Below are positions 7,791 through 20,057 of a stretch of 20,057 bases of DNA, piece after piece. Below the pieces are notes generated by a model that was not told the DNA's origin, ran no database searches, and saw only the letters and a program-made list of their open reading frames with translations. The stretch comes from Patescibacteria group bacterium (GTDB lineage Bacteria > Patescibacteria > ABY1 > JAGPKW01). The stretch covers positions 1-20,057 of the forward strand of contig JAIPGT010000006.1 of the NCBI GenBank assembly GCA_021735565.1, written 5' to 3'. A program made the position numbers and the translations under genes. Position 1 is the first letter of the stretch. Every line of letters starts with the position of its first letter.

Positions 7791-9197
7791 ATGAAAATAA
7801 AAAATTTTATAATATCATTTTTCTCTATGATATTTATATTTACTTCGGCTAATATAGCCTTAGGAACAGAAATTTCTGATGATAATATTGTAAATCCTAG
7901 AGTAATAGAACCTAGAACAGTTGAGCCAGTTAATATGAATATAGAAGAAGAAAATTTAATAAAAATAAATCCAGAAGAAGAAGTAATAGCACCTTCTAGA
8001 TTTAGATTATTTTTTCAAAACATCATAGAAAATGTTGATATAGCTTTTACTTTTTCAGAAGAAAAAAAGATAGAAAAAAGATTAGATTATGCTGAAAATA
8101 AAATTGAAATTGCTAATAAAATATTAAGTTCAAGTAATGCAGAAAATTCAGAAAAAAGATCTGAAATTGCTCTTTCTATGATAGAAAATGCAGAAAGACA
8201 TATAAATAGAGTTCAAAATAAAAACAAAATATTAGAAATGAATAAAGAGGAAAATAAAGAACAAAACCAAGAACAAAATAATACTGAAAGTGAAGAAAAT
8301 AGAAGGGAAGCTGATTCAAATAAAATAGAAGCAGTTATGAATAGAATTATGAATATTCAAAGTAATAAAGATAGGGTATATGCTCAAATTGAAAACACTG
8401 CAGTAAGTGAAGACAAACTAGAAAAAATCATAAAACAAAAACAAGAAAATTATGAAAAACAAGAAATATTTTTAAATAGTTTAGAAAAAGAAGAAATAGA
8501 TTATAGAGTAAAAAATATAATTCAAAATAGAGCTATAGAAATTGATAGTAATAGGCAAATAGATAATATTAAATTAGAAAATATAATAAGAGAAAGAAAT
8601 AAAATAGAAGAACAAAACCAAAACCAAGAACAAAATCAAAATTCAGATTTAGAAAGAGATCAAACAAGAGAAAGAAATAGAGAGATAATAAATGAAGGCT
8701 TAACAGAAAAACCGGAAGGTGTTGTTATGTGTACTATGGAATATGCTCCAGTTTGTGGAGAAGATGGAAAAACTTATCCAAATAGATGTGTAGCTGAACA
8801 TCAAAATAAAATAAAAGTAGCCTATGAAGGTGAATGTAGAAATAATGGTAATATAAAAGATAATGAAACAACAGAAGATGAAGATATATCAAACCCAGAA
8901 ATAACAAATAGCACATTAAATAAAATTACAAGAGAAGAATTAGAAAGAGGTTGGTATTGGGGATCTGTAAATCAGAAAAAATTAGGAACACCAGATAATT
9001 GGGTACATAAATCAGCAGGTAGTCGTAATGCAATGTGGGTTTCTCCTAATGGTAATAATTTAGAAGAAAAAATAGCTGATGATTTATTAGAAATAAATAC
9101 TGAAAATTCAGAAAACGGTTCTGCTCTTCAAGATGAAAGACAAATAAATAGAATAGAAAATAGATCTAATACTGGATCTAATTCTGATAATAATTAA
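7791..9197 (+). CDS. secreted protein with DUF5667-like helical region and Kazal-type inhibitor domain
   Basis: A 468-residue exported protein. Residues 1-25 form a signal peptide (KIK, hydrophobic core, ALG before T26). Residues 66-140 (PSRFRLFFQNIIENVDIAFTF, then a charged helix, then ALSMIENAERHINR) resemble DUF5667, a helical domain of exported bacterial proteins. A Gln/Asn/Glu-rich coiled region follows (150-300). Residues 314-349 form a Kazal-type protease-inhibitor domain: CTMEYAPVCGEDGKTYPNRC then a final Cys349, close to the ovomucoid third-domain loop; Met316 occupies the P1 position. Only four Cys remain, matching C2, C3, C4 and C6. A Trp-rich stretch (387-418) follows, then a polar tail. 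It may act at or outside the envelope against foreign or host proteases (inference). It sits 58 nt after the methyltransferase gene and 10 nt before ferredoxin. Confidence 0.8.
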   Translation: MKIKNFIISFFSMIFIFTSANIALGTEISDDNIVNPRVIEPRTVEPVNMNIEEENLIKINPEEEVIAPSRFRLFFQNIIENVDIAFTFSEEKKIEKRLDYAENKIEIANKILSSSNAENSEKRSEIALSMIENAERHINRVQNKNKILEMNKEENKEQNQEQNNTESEENRREADSNKIEAVMNRIMNIQSNKDRVYAQIENTAVSEDKLEKIIKQKQENYEKQEIFLNSLEKEEIDYRVKNIIQNRAIEIDSNRQIDNIKLENIIRERNKIEEQNQNQEQNQNSDLERDQTRERNREIINEGLTEKPEGVVMCTMEYAPVCGEDGKTYPNRCVAEHQNKIKVAYEGECRNNGNIKDNETTEDEDISNPEITNSTLNKITREELERGWYWGSVNQKKLGTPDNWVHKSAGSRNAMWVSPNGNNLEEKIADDLLEINTENSENGSALQDERQINRIENRSNTGSNSDNN

Positions 9198-12600: not shown

Positions 12601-15132
12601 ATGAAAGAATACAAACATAAAGAAATTGAAAAAAAATGGCAAAAAATTTGGGAAGATAATAATGTTTATAGAACAAAAGAAGAAAAAAATAAGGAAAAAT
12701 TTTATATTTTAGATATGTTTCCTTATCCTTCCGGATCAGGTCTTCATATCGGACATCCTAAAGGTTATACTGCAACAGATATTTATTCAAGATATAAAAA
12801 TTTACAAGGATATAACGTTCTACATCCTATGGGTTGGGATGCTTTTGGACTTCCAGCAGAAAATTATGCTATAAAAAATAAAGTTCATCCAGAAAAAGCA
12901 ACTCTAGAAAATATTGAAAAATTTAAAAACCAATTAAAAAATATAGGCTTTAGTTATGATTGGGATAAAGAATTAACAACAATATCCCCAGAATATTATA
13001 AATGGACTCAATGGATATTTATCAAATTATACAATTCTTATTACGACGAAAAAATAGATAAAGCCCGAGATATTAAAGAATTAATAAAAGAAAAATTTCA
13101 AACAGAAAATTATTATTCTTTAAAACAGGAAGAAAAAAAATATATAGATTCAAAAAGATTAGCTTTTGAGAGTTTTGAGCCTATAAATTGGTGTCCTTCT
13201 TGTAAAACTGGTCTAGCAAATGAAGATTTAGAAAATGGAAAATGCGAAAGATGTGGGTCTGAAATAGAATTAAAACCTATGAGACAATGGGTTTTGAGAA
13301 TTACAGAATATGCAGATAGAATGCTAGAAGATTTAAATCTTCTAGATTGGGAAGACATGATAATTGAAATGCAAAAAAATTGGATAGGGAAGAGTGAAGG
13401 TTCAGAAATAGATTTCAATATAGTAAAAGAAGATAAAAATTTAAATAAAATATCAGTATTCACAACTAGATTAGATACTATTTTTGGTTGTACATATATT
13501 GTTATCGCTCCAGAGAATAAAATAATTCATGAAATAGAAGACAAAATAGAAAATATAGAAGAAGTTGAAGAATATATAAAAAATATAAAAAATAAAAGCG
13601 ATTTAGAAAGAACTGATCTAAATAAAGATAAAACAGGAATAAAACTAGAAGGTATATATGCTATAAATCCTTTTAATAATGAAAAAATAGAAGTATGGAT
13701 AGCTGATTATGTATTAAATTCATACGGAACAGGTTGTGTTATGGCTGTTCCTGCTCATGATTTTAGAGATTTTGAATTTGCTAAAAAATATAATTTAGAG
13801 ATAAGAGAATCTATAATTTCTGAAAAGGAAGATAAAGAAATAAATACAGATTATGGAATAACTATAAATTCAGGAGAATTTTCTGATTTAGACTCAAAAA
13901 CAGCAATAGAAAAAATGATGAAATTTGCAGAAAATAAAGGATTTGGTAGAAAAAAAATTAATTATAAATTAAAAGATTGGGTTTTCTCTAGACAAAGATA
14001 TTGGGGAGAGCCTATTCCAATAATACATTGTCCAAAATGTGGAGTAGTTCCATTAGCAGAAAAAGATTTACCACTAGAATTACCGAATGTAGAAAATTAT
14101 GAACCATCAGGAACAGGGGAGTCTCCTCTTGCAAAAATTGATTCTTGGGTAAATATAAAATGTCCAATATGTGGAGAAAATGCTAAAAGAGAAACTAATA
14201 CAATGCCTCAATGGGCAGGTTCTTGTTGGTATTATTTGAGATATATAGATACAAAAAATAATGAATTAATAATTGATCCAGAAAAAGAAAAATACTGGAT
14301 GAACGTTGATTTATATGTTGGAGGAGCTGAACATGCAACAAGGCATTTGATATATGCTAGATTTTGGCATAAATTTTTATATGATATTGGAGTAGTTTCA
14401 ACAAAAGAACCTTTTAAAAAATTATTACACGTTGGTCTAGTGATGGCAGAAGATGGAACAAAAATTTCTAAAAGAAAGGGGAATGGTATAGATCCAAACG
14501 ATGTAGTAGAAGAATTTGGAGCAGATTCTTTAAGATTATTTGAAATGTTTATGGGGCCATTTTCACAAAGTGCATCATGGAGTCAGGGTGGAGTTTTAGG
14601 AATGAGAAAGTTTTTAGAAAGAGTTTATCAATTAAAAAGTAAGGTTGTAGAACACAATGTAGAACAAAAAAATATAGAAAAACTAGCCAATAAAACAATA
14701 AAAAAAGTTAGTGAGGATTTAGATAATTTTTCATTTAATACAGCTATTTCTGCTTTAATGATCCTTTCAAATAATTTTAAAAAAGAAAAAGAAATATCAA
14801 AAAAGTTATTTGAAAAATTTTTAATAATATTAAATCCATTTGCTCCACATATAACAGAAGAATTATGGAGTCAAATAGGCAATAAAGATATTATTGTAAA
14901 AAATGTAAATTGGCCTTCTTATGATGAGAATTTAATAAAAGATGATATTATAAAGTTCGTTATATCAATAAATGGAAAGCCAAGAGAAATTATAGAAATG
15001 AATACAGAAAGTACTGAAGAAGAGGTATTAAAGATTGCTAAAGAACAAGAAAAAATAAAAAAATATATTGAAAATAAAGAAATTAAAAAAACTATATTTG
15101 TAAAAAATAAATTATTAAATATTATAATATAA
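12601..15132 (+). CDS. leuS: leucyl-tRNA synthetase
   Basis: An 843-residue class Ia synthetase charging tRNA-Leu. The first catalytic motif is LHIGH (48-52) after FPYPSGSG; the second is KISKR (621-625), a variant of KMSKS, followed by KGNGIDPNDV. A zinc finger-like CPSC...CERC pair (about 199-219) precedes PMRQW. The CP1 editing domain is present with TTRLDTIFG and the VPAHDFRDFEFA stretch. A second CPKC...CPIC pair flanks the segment before NTMPQWAGSCWYYLRY. About 40 extra residues (about 147-190, starting DEKIDKARDI) precede the first zinc site; similar inserts occur in some bacterial LeuRS groups. The C-terminus ends in the usual small domain. It has its own promoter and overlaps the next gene by 1 nt (TAATG). 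Confidence 0.97.
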   Translation: MKEYKHKEIEKKWQKIWEDNNVYRTKEEKNKEKFYILDMFPYPSGSGLHIGHPKGYTATDIYSRYKNLQGYNVLHPMGWDAFGLPAENYAIKNKVHPEKATLENIEKFKNQLKNIGFSYDWDKELTTISPEYYKWTQWIFIKLYNSYYDEKIDKARDIKELIKEKFQTENYYSLKQEEKKYIDSKRLAFESFEPINWCPSCKTGLANEDLENGKCERCGSEIELKPMRQWVLRITEYADRMLEDLNLLDWEDMIIEMQKNWIGKSEGSEIDFNIVKEDKNLNKISVFTTRLDTIFGCTYIVIAPENKIIHEIEDKIENIEEVEEYIKNIKNKSDLERTDLNKDKTGIKLEGIYAINPFNNEKIEVWIADYVLNSYGTGCVMAVPAHDFRDFEFAKKYNLEIRESIISEKEDKEINTDYGITINSGEFSDLDSKTAIEKMMKFAENKGFGRKKINYKLKDWVFSRQRYWGEPIPIIHCPKCGVVPLAEKDLPLELPNVENYEPSGTGESPLAKIDSWVNIKCPICGENAKRETNTMPQWAGSCWYYLRYIDTKNNELIIDPEKEKYWMNVDLYVGGAEHATRHLIYARFWHKFLYDIGVVSTKEPFKKLLHVGLVMAEDGTKISKRKGNGIDPNDVVEEFGADSLRLFEMFMGPFSQSASWSQGGVLGMRKFLERVYQLKSKVVEHNVEQKNIEKLANKTIKKVSEDLDNFSFNTAISALMILSNNFKKEKEISKKLFEKFLIILNPFAPHITEELWSQIGNKDIIVKNVNWPSYDENLIKDDIIKFVISINGKPREIIEMNTESTEEEVLKIAKEQEKIKKYIENKEIKKTIFVKNKLLNIII

Positions 15133-17737: not shown

Positions 17738-18422
17738 TTATTATTTCATTTCTAACTTTTCTTCTAACGTCATTGTCATGAAATTTTAACATATCATTAT
17801 TAATAATTACACCCCAAGGATTTTCTAATTTTTTTTTATGATTTATAGTTTTTTTAATAAATATTTTCTTTAATAAATATTCAAAAAAGTCAAAAAATTT
17901 ATAATTTTTAATATTATTTTTATATTTTATATATATCTTATATTTATTAAAATCTTTATTTTGCTTTTCTATATTAAATAAATTTAATAATTTTTTATAA
18001 ATATCATTTTTATCAACTATAGTTTTTAAATAATATATCCAAAAAAACAAATAAATATCATTTTCTATTTTTATTTTATTAAAATTAGAAATACCATTTT
18101 CTGTGCAAAAAAAAGAAAGACAAAAATTATTTTTTATTTTATTAGAAGTTCTTCTATTTCCTAAAAGCTGAAAATATAAAGTAGTTAATATTCTGACTAT
18201 CCATAATCTATTATTTGATGATACAATAAATAAATCTATATCAGAGTTTTTATTTGTTGCATTCATAGATAAAGAATTACAAACAAAAATACCTTTAATA
18301 AAAGGAATTCTAGATAAAGGTTTTGTATATTTTAAAACTTTTTTATATAAAATTTCCTCATTATTTGAAGGCTCTTCCTTTATATTAAAATATTCTTTAA
18401 ATTTTTCATGATATTCAAACAT
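17727..18422 (-). CDS. Pol-beta-type nucleotidyltransferase-like protein
   Basis: A 231-residue protein. Residues 42-66 ([20 protein letters not shown], then IDLFIV) match the nucleotidyltransferase core: a strand, the usual Gly-Ser written here as Asn49-Ser50, then Asp61-x-Asp63, the metal-binding pair. The third carboxylate is not evident. A C-terminal stretch ([18 protein letters not shown], then VRRKV, about 201-223) looks conserved and may be a family-specific tail. The middle is hydrophobic and aromatic but has no convincing membrane helix set. It leads the minus-strand operon with recQ (11-nt overlap). A role as a kanamycin-type or tRNA-related nucleotidyltransferase cannot be decided; substrate is unknown. 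The start is supported by the promoter immediately upstream. Confidence 0.72.
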
Positions 18423-19706
18423 AATACAATTATATCACACATAAAAGACTATTTTACAAAAAATAAAATAAGTAATTTTTTATTATTATTAATAATATTT
18501 TTGATTCCATTTCAAACCAGATATATATTTGAAATAATGGGAATTAATAATCAATATTTTGAATATGGAAATATATCAATATATATAATAGATATATTAA
18601 TCTTATTTTATATTTTATTTAATTTAAAAAATTTATTAGAAACAGTAAAAGATAAAAAAAATTTAAAATTTATTATTTTAACTTTAATTTTATTAATAAT
18701 ATTAATATTATTTAATAACAAAATTTTAAGTATATATTGGATTTTTAGAATATTTTATTTAATTTTATTTTTTACAATTTTATTTTTTGAAAAAATTAAA
18801 ATTTTAGAAAAAATATATTTAGTTTTGATATGTTCATCTACAATACAAGCAATAATATCAATATACCAATTTTATAAACAAAGTATTATTCCAAATAAAT
18901 ATTTAGGTTTAGCTGGAAAATTTGCCTCAGATTTAGGGCCATCAATAATAGAAGGTGGGGGATTCAGAATTTTAAGAGGATATGGATTATTTACACACCC
19001 TAATATTTTGGGGCTTTATTTGATTATAGGAACCATATTTTTAATATATTTTATATTTAAAAATAATAAGTATAAGAATCTTTATTATTTTTTATTAGGA
19101 TTAAATATTATAGGAATAATATATTCATTCTCTAGATTAATTTATGTTTTTTTATTTATAACTATATTTTTTACTTTGATTTTTTATAAAAAAAATATAA
19201 AAGAAAAAATAATTATATTAATTATATTTTTATCTTTAATAATAATTAATTTTAATTTTATAAAAATAAGAATAAATCCAGAAAGTAGATTAAATATTAA
19301 TTCTAATAATGAGAGGGTATTAGAATATAATAATATAGATTTTAATGAGTTTAATATATTAAAAGGTGTAGGAATTAGAAATTATACATTTTACACATTA
19401 GATAAATATCCAGATATTAAAATTTGGGAATTAAATCCTATCCATAATATATATTTATTATCAATAATAGAATCAGGAATTATATTTTCTTTTATATTCA
19501 TATTAATTCTATTATTTCCTTATTATTTATTTTTCAAAAATATAAAAAAGGGGAATAAAGAAAATATTATAATAATACTTATATATTCATTTTTTATAAT
19601 AAATGGTTTTTTTGAACATTTTTTAATAACAGAAAACTCAGGATTATTGTTTCTAGGGCTTATATATATAATATATTTAAAAAATAATTTAACTCTTGAC
19701 ACATAA
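18408..19706 (+). CDS. O-antigen ligase/polymerase-like membrane protein (Wzy_C family)
   Basis: A 432-residue, extremely hydrophobic protein with about 11-12 membrane segments. The WaaL/Wzy signature is visible: RGYGLFTHPNILGLYL (190-204), a large periplasmic-type loop around 284-345 and LNPIHNIYLLSIIESG (342-357), where His346 matches the catalytic histidine of WaaL ligases. Such proteins transfer or polymerise undecaprenyl-linked glycans at the outer face of the membrane; ligase versus polymerase cannot be decided. The ATG at 18408 makes the first 15 nt overlap the divergent gene; a later non-ATG start is possible because the next in-frame ATG comes 43 codons in, after the first membrane segment. 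Its 3' end overlaps the -35 of the 23S rRNA promoter. The flippase at 258 may act in the same pathway. Confidence 0.85.
   Translation: MIFKHNTIISHIKDYFTKNKISNFLLLLIIFLIPFQTRYIFEIMGINNQYFEYGNISIYIIDILILFYILFNLKNLLETVKDKKNLKFIILTLILLIILILFNNKILSIYWIFRIFYLILFFTILFFEKIKILEKIYLVLICSSTIQAIISIYQFYKQSIIPNKYLGLAGKFASDLGPSIIEGGGFRILRGYGLFTHPNILGLYLIIGTIFLIYFIFKNNKYKNLYYFLLGLNIIGIIYSFSRLIYVFLFITIFFTLIFYKKNIKEKIIILIIFLSLIIINFNFIKIRINPESRLNINSNNERVLEYNNIDFNEFNILKGVGIRNYTFYTLDKYPDIKIWELNPIHNIYLLSIIESGIIFSFIFILILLFPYYLFFKNIKKGNKENIIIILIYSFFIINGFFEHFLITENSGLLFLGLIYIIYLKNNLTLDT
18429..18437 (-). promoter_or_regulatory. extended -10 promoter of the nucleotidyltransferase-recQ operon, predicted leaderless
   Basis: On the minus strand TGATATAAT (18437-18429) is an extended -10 with a perfect TATAAT ending 6 nt before the ATG at 18422, so transcription should start at or next to the start codon. 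The -35 is weak (TTGTAA, 19-nt spacer). It lies within the beginning of the divergent ligase gene. Confidence 0.55.
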
Positions 19707-19724
19707 AAAAAAATAAGATACAAT
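19696..19724 (+). promoter_or_regulatory. promoter of the 23S rRNA transcript
   Basis: A perfect TTGACA (19696-19701), a 17-nt spacer and TACAAT (19719-19724): the best match in the window to sigma70 consensus. The -35 lies in the last codons of the ligase gene (stop 19704-19706). Expected start is near 19731, leaving about 250 nt of leader. Confidence 0.85.
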
Positions 19725-19745
19725 ACACAACATCATAAAAATTTA

Positions 19746-19839
19746 GATAACCTCTAAGCTAATTTAAAGACTTAAGTTATATATCAAATATATTAAATAC
19801 TGTTTTTTGTTTAGTCACGTTTTCGAGGTTGTCTTTTTT
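19746..19839 (+). terminator. terminator-like structure in the 23S leader
   Basis: GATAACCTC (19746-19754) pairs with GAGGTTGTC (19825-19833) over 9 bp with one G-U pair, followed by TTTTTT (19834-19839). The enclosed loop is 70 nt, which is long for a simple terminator. It could be an attenuator or define a ~110-nt small RNA made from the rRNA promoter. Confidence 0.5.
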
Positions 19840-19841
19840 AT

Positions 19842-19858
19842 TGCCTTTTAACAATTTA
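19842..19858 (+). promoter_or_regulatory. boxA antitermination element upstream of 23S rRNA
   Basis: TGCCTTTTAACAATTTA matches the E. coli rrn leader boxA TGCTCTTTAACAATTTA at 15 of 17 positions, including an unbroken TTTAACAATTTA. BoxA binds the NusB-S10 antitermination complex in E. coli. It lies after the terminator-like structure and before the hairpin at 19862-19884. Confidence 0.75.
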
Positions 19859-19861
19859 CAT

Positions 19862-19884
19862 AAGTTCTTAAAAAATAAGAATTT
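19862..19884 (+). other. hairpin after boxA in the 23S leader
   Basis: AAGTTCTTA (19862-19870), loop AAAAA, TAAGAATTT (19876-19884): 9 bp with one G-U pair, followed by TT. It is enclosed by a longer-range pairing of TTTAACAA (19847-19854, inside boxA) with TTGTTAAA (19892-19899). A processing stem or weak terminator are possible roles. Confidence 0.5.
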
Positions 19885-19982
19885 TTGCTAGTTGTTAAAG
19901 AAGATATTTTAAAATTAGAAAAGGAGAATAAAGTCCAAAATATTATAATTGCAATTTACTCATGTTAATTTCATTATTAATG

Positions 19983-20057
19983 TGATTAGGTAATCATAGT
20001 ATATGGTGGATGCCTTGACATTAAAAAGCTAAGAAGGACGTAGCAATCTGCGATAAG
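19983..20057 (+). rRNA. 23S ribosomal RNA, 5' end only (continues beyond window)
   Basis: GGTGGATGCC (20005-20014) followed by GAAGGACGTAGCAATCTGCG (20033-20052) and ATAAG is the highly conserved 5' region of bacterial 23S rRNA. Counting 22 nt upstream of GGTGGATGCC, as in E. coli, puts the mature 5' end near 19983 (uncertain by a few bases). No 16S gene precedes it: the upstream neighbour is a protein gene ending at 19706, with its own promoter in between. Confidence 0.95.

Follow-up and report, generated by a model that had tools for sequence, protein, structure and literature searches.

How can a cell make 16S and 23S ribosomal RNA (rRNA) in step when the two genes share no common transcript? 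Cells with split rRNA genes must do so, and the question is raised by a stretch of 20,057 nucleotides (nt) from an uncultured Patescibacteria group bacterium with a small genome (contig JAIPGT010000006.1; this whole stretch is called the window), a member of the Candidate Phyla Radiation (CPR), which ends within a 23S rRNA gene that has its own promoter and leader. In the parts of the published accounts available to us, rRNA genes are unlinked in 27 of 34 circularised CPR genomes (PMC8172020), and the balance of split 16S and 23S is presented as an open question, for which hypotheses are offered and promoter comparisons are called for (PMC7761764). An earlier note on this DNA had counted CPR among the lineages with split rRNA operons, as those figures bear out, and had stated that a split requires its own way of balancing the two products. 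The latter idea led to a leader layout that we find in 61 of 92 unlinked 23S leaders: a short reading frame followed, at a set distance, by an intrinsic terminator. What the note could not see is that the frame is missing from the leader of the window. Taken together, the observations below suggest that the typical CPR 23S leader is probably a translation-coupled attenuator, of which the window would carry a reduced or remodelled version. Our judgement leans slightly towards the wider statement that, across the CPR, the split 23S is under its own ribosome-counting attenuator and the 16S is without one, the window's order having lost the frame and being left either constitutive or with a hairpin that pairs with boxA.

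The set comprises 92 unlinked CPR 23S leaders, the window's included: 45 in a phylum set and 47 in a set from the class of G475, the closest genome compared (its POR beta subunit is 98% identical to that of the window). From the 52 genomes matched in the phylum scan, eight matches that were not 23S (G057, G046, G080, G180, G023, G252, G259 and G069) and seven linked genomes were dropped; from the 53 matches of the class scan, which recovered G003, one that was not 23S (G422) was dropped and five duplicates of the set were removed. 'Unlinked' means without a 16S 3′-end motif in the available upstream stretch (0.5–5 kb; 20 kb for the window), with two exceptions kept, G039 and G096, whose 16S genes lie 3.5 and 1.85 kb upstream. 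The layout was first seen by eye in G001–G006, where the interval between promoter and 23S holds a short ATG frame followed by an intrinsic terminator and, mostly, a boxA. Under a strict definition (promoter matching at least 10/12 consensus positions; hairpin of at least −5 kcal/mol followed by a T-run; ATG frame of 5–30 codons with its stop 15–40 nt before the hairpin), the 61 leaders that show it divide into 26 of 45 in the phylum set and 35 of 47 in the class set, or 37 of 52 when all members of G475's class are counted. The distance from stop to hairpin has a median of 27 nt (interquartile range 26–30), though 15–40 nt was allowed, and the frames have a median length of 13 codons (range 7–17). 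Typical hairpins have a short, GC-rich stem with 5–7 T behind it; 73 of the 92 leaders hold an intrinsic terminator by the strict test. Behind the terminator, a boxA is present in 43 of the 61 typical leaders (4.8 in shuffles, maximum 10). The 23S leaders of seven relatives' loci matched no Rfam family at E up to 0.05; the rnk_pseudo match obtained in L206 falls on the 5S gene.

Shuffled sequences, 16S leaders and other promoters served as controls. In the phylum set, 24 of the 32 terminator-bearing 23S leaders have a frame stop 15–40 nt before the terminator, compared with a mean of 4.6 (standard deviation 1.9, maximum 13) in 500 shuffles of that set; the same test on 16S leaders gave 3 of 19, against 2.1 in shuffles. 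Under a looser definition, which asks for an ATG frame ahead of a terminator in leaders whose promoter scores 10/12 or better, 29 of 43 23S leaders and 6 of 40 16S leaders qualify, and with promoters of at least 11/12 the layout was present in 54 of 74 23S leaders versus 1 of 24 16S leaders (Fisher p = 1.2e-9; the leader sequences are related, and the counts and p values are not independent draws). Other strong promoters in the same loci showed the layout in 2 of 14 cases, G077 and G080; the former is likely to be that genome's 23S promoter, and the latter was taken as background. On a tree built from the initial 1500 nt of 23S (48 rows; the short rows G064, G166, G107 and G279 were dropped, and the window, with 75 nt, was left out), the strict layout is scattered over 23 rows with 11 changes, of which at least 6 are forced. 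Six linked rows form one branch (100/99). Because E. coli falls beside G124 inside that branch, the deep branches of the tree, or the membership of G124, are untrustworthy, and no single origin of the layout is claimed.

The way in which such a leader might work is suggested by its competing pairings. We define A as the 3′ end of the frame, B as the 5′ arm of the terminator and C as its 3′ arm. In G281, A (GAGCGGTTG) is complementary to B (CAACCGCTC); in G004, ten of eleven positions are paired by eye between AGCGATTCTAA and TTAGAACCGCT. Before the 3′ arm is made, 7.2 A:B pairs are expected, compared with 2.8 when A is shuffled. At least 4 are expected in 51 of the 61 leaders, and the A–B duplex beats 95% of shuffles in 31. 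When A was masked in the folds of G281 and G003, the terminator became the best structure, so that translation of the frame, by covering A, is predicted to stop 23S transcription.

We envisage a stand-alone 23S(-5S) unit, driven in the window by the promoter at 19696–19724. The typical transcript would carry an ATG frame of ~13 codons without an obvious Shine–Dalgarno sequence, a terminator ~27 nt past the stop, often a boxA, and then the 23S. While the frame is free of ribosomes, A would pair with B, the terminator would be blocked and the 23S transcribed; a ribosome at the stop codon would cover A, leaving B to pair with C, and transcription would end. Plentiful working ribosomes would in this way give less 23S and a shortage would give more, a feedback on the large subunit, with no such switch on the separate 16S unit. 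As the frames mostly have no Shine–Dalgarno sequence, their occupancy could track ribosome supply. The DNA itself shows the split in relatives, the promoter, and the layout with its statistics; termination, translation of the frame and the direction of control are our inference.

In the window's order, represented among the compared genomes by G475, G418 and G448 only, this switch would be reduced or remodelled: the promoter and the hairpin with its U-run are kept, a boxA is present in the window and G475, and there is no ATG frame (coordinates in Table 1). No ATG occurs anywhere between the promoter and the helix of the window, and a search by eye for frames with GTG, TTG or near-cognate starts in its leader produced no convincing candidate. 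Nor was a competing antiterminator recognised in the window. The helix has 9-bp arms, a 70-nt loop and six T, is AU-rich, and failed the strict hairpin test. Its arms (GATAACCTC/GAGGTTGTC) are kept with changes on both sides across three genomes: 9 of 9 pairs form in the window, 9 of 9 in G475 and 8 of 9 in G418, the first pair being G-C, G-U and A-U, respectively. The region 19731–19842 folds with a z score of −3.48, and 0 of 200 shuffles were as good. The scan that located the boxA also recovered the E. coli rrnB leader boxA as a control. By the same pattern, G418 has no clear boxA match at that place, and a TTTAAC/GTTAAA helix stands where the window has its boxA hairpin. Leader and trailer form a long helix of the kind expected of an RNase III-type pre-rRNA processing stem; the window stops before its own 23S trailer, and the stem was paired against the trailer of G475 instead. 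Compared with G475 by blastn and judged by eye, the leader is no less conserved than the upstream gene. Scanned against Rfam at E up to 1, the segment of the window gave no family for the leader; its only matches were the 23S and the snoRNA GlsR7. The GlsR7 match (minus strand, 19956–20001; E 0.14, 18.4 bits where 75 are needed) was taken as chance. We regard the window's leader as probably reduced or remodelled, and as lying outside the attenuator family; because the reading frame, the defining feature, is missing, it was not filed as a leader-peptide attenuator.

Several observations weigh against a translation-coupled attenuator. The 31 of 92 leaders that fail the strict test comprise 5 without a 10/12 promoter, 14 without a terminator and 12 without a frame at the required spacing; the leaders of G387 and G354 (L287 and L319), 116 and 141 nt long, show the promoter immediately followed by a boxA-like stretch, without an attenuator. 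Among the failures, the layout can be made out by eye, uncounted, in at least G524, G437, G465, G245, G063, G096 and G077 (the look covered 21 failures plus G077), and G231 has an uncounted layout with a GTG start. The A strand beats 95% of other genomes' A strands in only 15 of 61 leaders, masking A in G543 leaves the terminator unfreed in the whole-leader fold, and boxA-like motifs also occur in 15 of 41 16S leaders (3.7 in shuffles, maximum 8). In four groups of related frames, codon changes are mostly non-synonymous (83 versus 33 codons), with 66, 42 and 78 changes at codon positions 1, 2 and 3; the leader peptide is little conserved, and its conservation is weak as proof of coding. Finally, the window, G475 and G418 yielded no ATG frame in a strict search, and all three fail the strict terminator test, the loop of their helix (44–70 nt) being poor for a terminator. 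Separately, the frames of one branch (L324, L326, L327, L322 and L321, from G457, G518, G398, G502 and G550) encode a recognisable common peptide, for example MSNTKSL..LSGP..V.

One alternative is that the window organism has no special control of 23S at all, promoter strength and the decay of excess subunits being enough to balance the rRNAs. Such an arrangement would be expected of slow-growing cells with single-copy rRNA genes, and the absence of an ATG frame from the window, G475 and G418 and the bare promoter–boxA leaders of a few other lineages agree with it. In published discussion, unlinked rRNA genes have also been tied to weak selection on rRNA control (PMC7761764). Against it stand the structure of the window's leader, which exceeds that of shuffles in both folds (z −3.48 and −4.69), the helix kept through changes on both sides, and conservation, by eye, at least as good as that of the upstream gene. 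We consider this explanation a serious candidate, though on the whole it falls short of probable.

A second possibility gives the hairpin before the boxA a structural role, and not that of a terminator, in a Nus-type antitermination leader, boxB–boxA-like in arrangement; the hairpin would recruit factors for full transcription of the long, untranslated 23S. The boxA after the hairpin matches that of the E. coli rrnB leader, boxA accompanies the hairpin in most typical leaders, as counted above, and the hairpin of the window is rich in AU and closes a 70-nt loop, all of which would suit such a role; it may be the hairpin's only role in the window's order. The typical hairpin, however, with its short GC-rich stem and 5–7 T, has the form of an intrinsic terminator, and the boxA, lying behind it, would come too late to counter it. 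The frame, the fixed distance from stop to arm and the A:B pairing are also left unexplained, and we regard this alternative as unlikely.

Alternatively, the pair of frame and terminator could sense stalled ribosomes, as trp- or erm-type leaders do under amino-acid shortage or drugs, and not ribosome supply. The parts are the same as those of known leader-peptide attenuators, and lysine is the commonest residue of the 61 peptides (14.5%). Yet the peptides share no single-residue run or motif across lineages, endings that recur, SG* among them, result from the pairing of the A strand, and an SD-like 4-mer precedes the frame in only 3 of 61 cases (a count that covers the leader frames alone), which suits the sensing of initiation. 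Stall sensing is a doubtful alternative to ribosome supply as the signal of the proposed attenuator.

The earlier note had described the 23S of the window as unlinked, with a near-perfect promoter overlapping the end of a membrane-protein gene, 276 nt between that gene and the 23S, and no 16S or spacer tRNA upstream. The features described were confirmed, and the reading of an unlinked 23S with its own promoter is supported by the nearest relatives compared. The gene stops at 19706 and the 23S starts at 19983, leaving 19707–19982 between them; no 16S occurs in the 20 kb upstream of the 23S, and the sole tRNA of the window is a tRNA-Tyr at 42–128. The 23S promoter is the only 11/12 site listed for 18000–20057, and when the 320 nt leading up to the 23S were shuffled 1000 times, a site of that quality arose in 20 cases. 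Promoter-like sites overall number 27 in 18000–20057, compared with 26.8 expected from shuffles, and the promoter count by itself was rejected as evidence because weaker sites are no more frequent than chance predicts. Taken by itself, the motif is only moderately improbable, and conservation is the stronger argument. Positions 18480–20057, which span the gene end, promoter, leader and 23S, are 89% identical to G475 (1403/1583, blastn), with both hexamers and the N17 spacer unchanged; G418 has TTGACT-N17-TATAAT at the position of the 23S promoter. Of the two findings that the note would have taken as refutation, a 16S immediately upstream once a misassembly is corrected and transcripts arriving from a distant 16S, neither was encountered. 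Transcripts from the upstream membrane-protein gene may read into the 23S.

The search for 16S, 5S and further copies, as the note had advised, was made in the relatives, of which G475 and G418 are draft genomes. G475 holds one 23S (C1:77820–80800) with a 5S (77608–77722) behind it and one 16S on C26; G418 has the same split, with 23S–5S on C1, 16S on C11 and one copy of each found. In both, the 5S lies ~100–130 nt behind the 23S. The 16S of G475 is preceded, at a distance of 76 nt, by a promoter of its own (TTGACA-N16-TAGAAT), its leader and trailer pair as a stem (−23.5 kcal/mol), and a terminator-like end can be seen by eye; the 16S and 23S–5S of this genome look like two complete transcription units. 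In 13 further genomes (G039, G017, G029, G096, G032, G238, G221, G168, G262, G003, G004, G111 and G083), 16S and 23S lie on one contig but apart, by 80 kb in G004, which is recorded as a chromosome; seven CPR genomes are linked, with 16S and 23S within ~0.9 kb. Loss of the 16S at a misassembled junction (19707–19980) is very improbable: although the window is one contig end, misassembly is unlikely because the same junction lies inside G475's separate 101,202-bp contig, G418 is split too, and 0 of 47 newly fetched leaders of G475's class have a 16S 3′ end in the available 0.5–3.0 kb upstream.

Some features of the rRNA genes themselves were also recorded. In G163 (L185, 2711–2785, minus strand), a tRNA-Ala(TGC) lies between promoter and 23S, with no 16S in 5 kb upstream, as if the break-up of the operon had left its spacer tRNA beside the 23S. 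The 16S of G475 (L111) ends in GGAATTACTCCTTTTT, compared with GGATCACCTCCTTTCT in G418 and G448, which reflects either an altered anti-Shine–Dalgarno sequence or an assembly error. The 23S genes of G003 (L085) and G111 (L202) contain group I intron matches that score under the Rfam cut-off, and the 23S matches of G003 and G006 span ~3.5–3.7 kb.

Unlinked 16S and 23S–5S rRNA genes were reportedly the subject of work by Brewer et al. in 2020. In trp- and his-type leader-peptide attenuators, a promoter precedes a short frame, two competing hairpins and an intrinsic terminator, and the position of the ribosome decides the outcome. The typical CPR 23S leaders have the same series of promoter, frame, competing hairpins and terminator; unlike trp and his leaders, they precede an rRNA gene, have no regulatory codon run and would use the frame's own 3′ end as antiterminator strand, and transcription would end when a ribosome stands at the stop. 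The window's leader is without the frame. Antitermination in rrn leaders involves boxB–boxA–boxC and NusB–S10. A putative boxA (TTTAACAATTT) is likewise present in the window's leader, with similar motifs in the typical leaders already counted; unlike in rrn leaders, it sits separately on a 23S unit, behind a terminator-like hairpin. We know of no earlier leader-peptide attenuator on an rRNA gene, and the open-licence literature yielded no report of attenuation or a leader peptide on an rRNA gene of CPR or unlinked bacteria. The systems described in the available parts of PMC8172020 and PMC7761764 resemble the present one in having 16S apart from 23S–5S, single copies, a small AT-rich genome and a CPR lineage; those parts cover gene order and genome traits, to which the 23S leader, frame, terminator and boxA are an addition. 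The split gene order in CPR is already known, and the typical leader would be a new form of attenuation. If true, a 23S-only, translation-coupled attenuator would answer the balance question for much of a large, mostly uncultured radiation and would extend leader-peptide attenuation to rRNA itself. Its compact signature (promoter, frame, 27 nt, terminator, often boxA) can be used on metatranscriptomes and in reporters, and the window and its order offer a natural contrast without the frame.

Table 1. Features of the 23S locus at the end of the window
Feature	Position	Strand	Basis
Membrane-protein gene, 432 amino acids	18408..19706	+	Open reading frame; 3′ end holds the 23S −35 box; homologue adjoins 23S in G475
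23S promoter	19696..19724	+	TTGACA 19696–19701, N17, TACAAT 19719–19724; 11/12 consensus; predicted start ~19731
5′ arm (GATAACCTC) of long-loop terminator-like helix	19746..19754	+	9/9 pairs with 19825–19833
3′ arm (GAGGTTGTC) of the same helix	19825..19833	+	Pairing and fold
Six T (U-run) behind the 3′ arm	19834..19839	+	T-run there in G475 and G418 too
boxA-like antitermination element (TGCCTTTTAACAATTTAC)	19842..19859	+	Shares TTTAACAATTTA with E. coli rrnB leader boxA (CTCTTTAACAATTTATC); kept in G475
Hairpin pairing boxA core with TTGTTAAAG (19892–19900)	19846..19900	+	z −4.69, 0/200 shuffles as good; present in G475
Pre-23S processing stem, 5′ strand	19966..19990	+	Near-continuous pairing with G475 23S trailer, −22.7 kcal/mol
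23S rRNA gene, first 75 nt	19983..20057	+	Rfam RF02541 (LSU_rRNA_bacteria) positions 1–75, E 3.2e-09, 35.5 bits (below the 50-bit whole-gene cut-off; only 75 nt of 23S inside the window)

The rest of the window carries ordinary CPR genes. By Pfam and partly by reading of open reading frames, it encodes TsaE, GroES/GroEL, TsaD-like and EF-P-like proteins, a SpoU methylase, a 2-oxoacid:ferredoxin oxidoreductase set, leucyl-tRNA synthetase (LeuRS) and RecQ. The 432-residue membrane protein before the 23S has a weak O-antigen-ligase/Wzy_C match (PF04932, 31.2 bits against a cut-off of 31.7). At 7791–9197, a protein with a Kazal-type protease-inhibitor domain and, by eye, a signal-like N-terminus is encoded, which is unexpected in a small-genome bacterium. 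The proteins closest to the window's LeuRS (843 amino acids, 12601–15132) are 90%, 89% and 82% identical to it. The LeuRS of a relative (P0004, 987 amino acids) has an extra stretch with a precomputed match to PF10706, presumably a nucleotidyltransferase-like family, which is not listed for the LeuRS of the window. In G335 (C14:153238–154938), a LeuRS match lies inside an open frame of 24,995 amino acids, perhaps an artefact of masked sequence.

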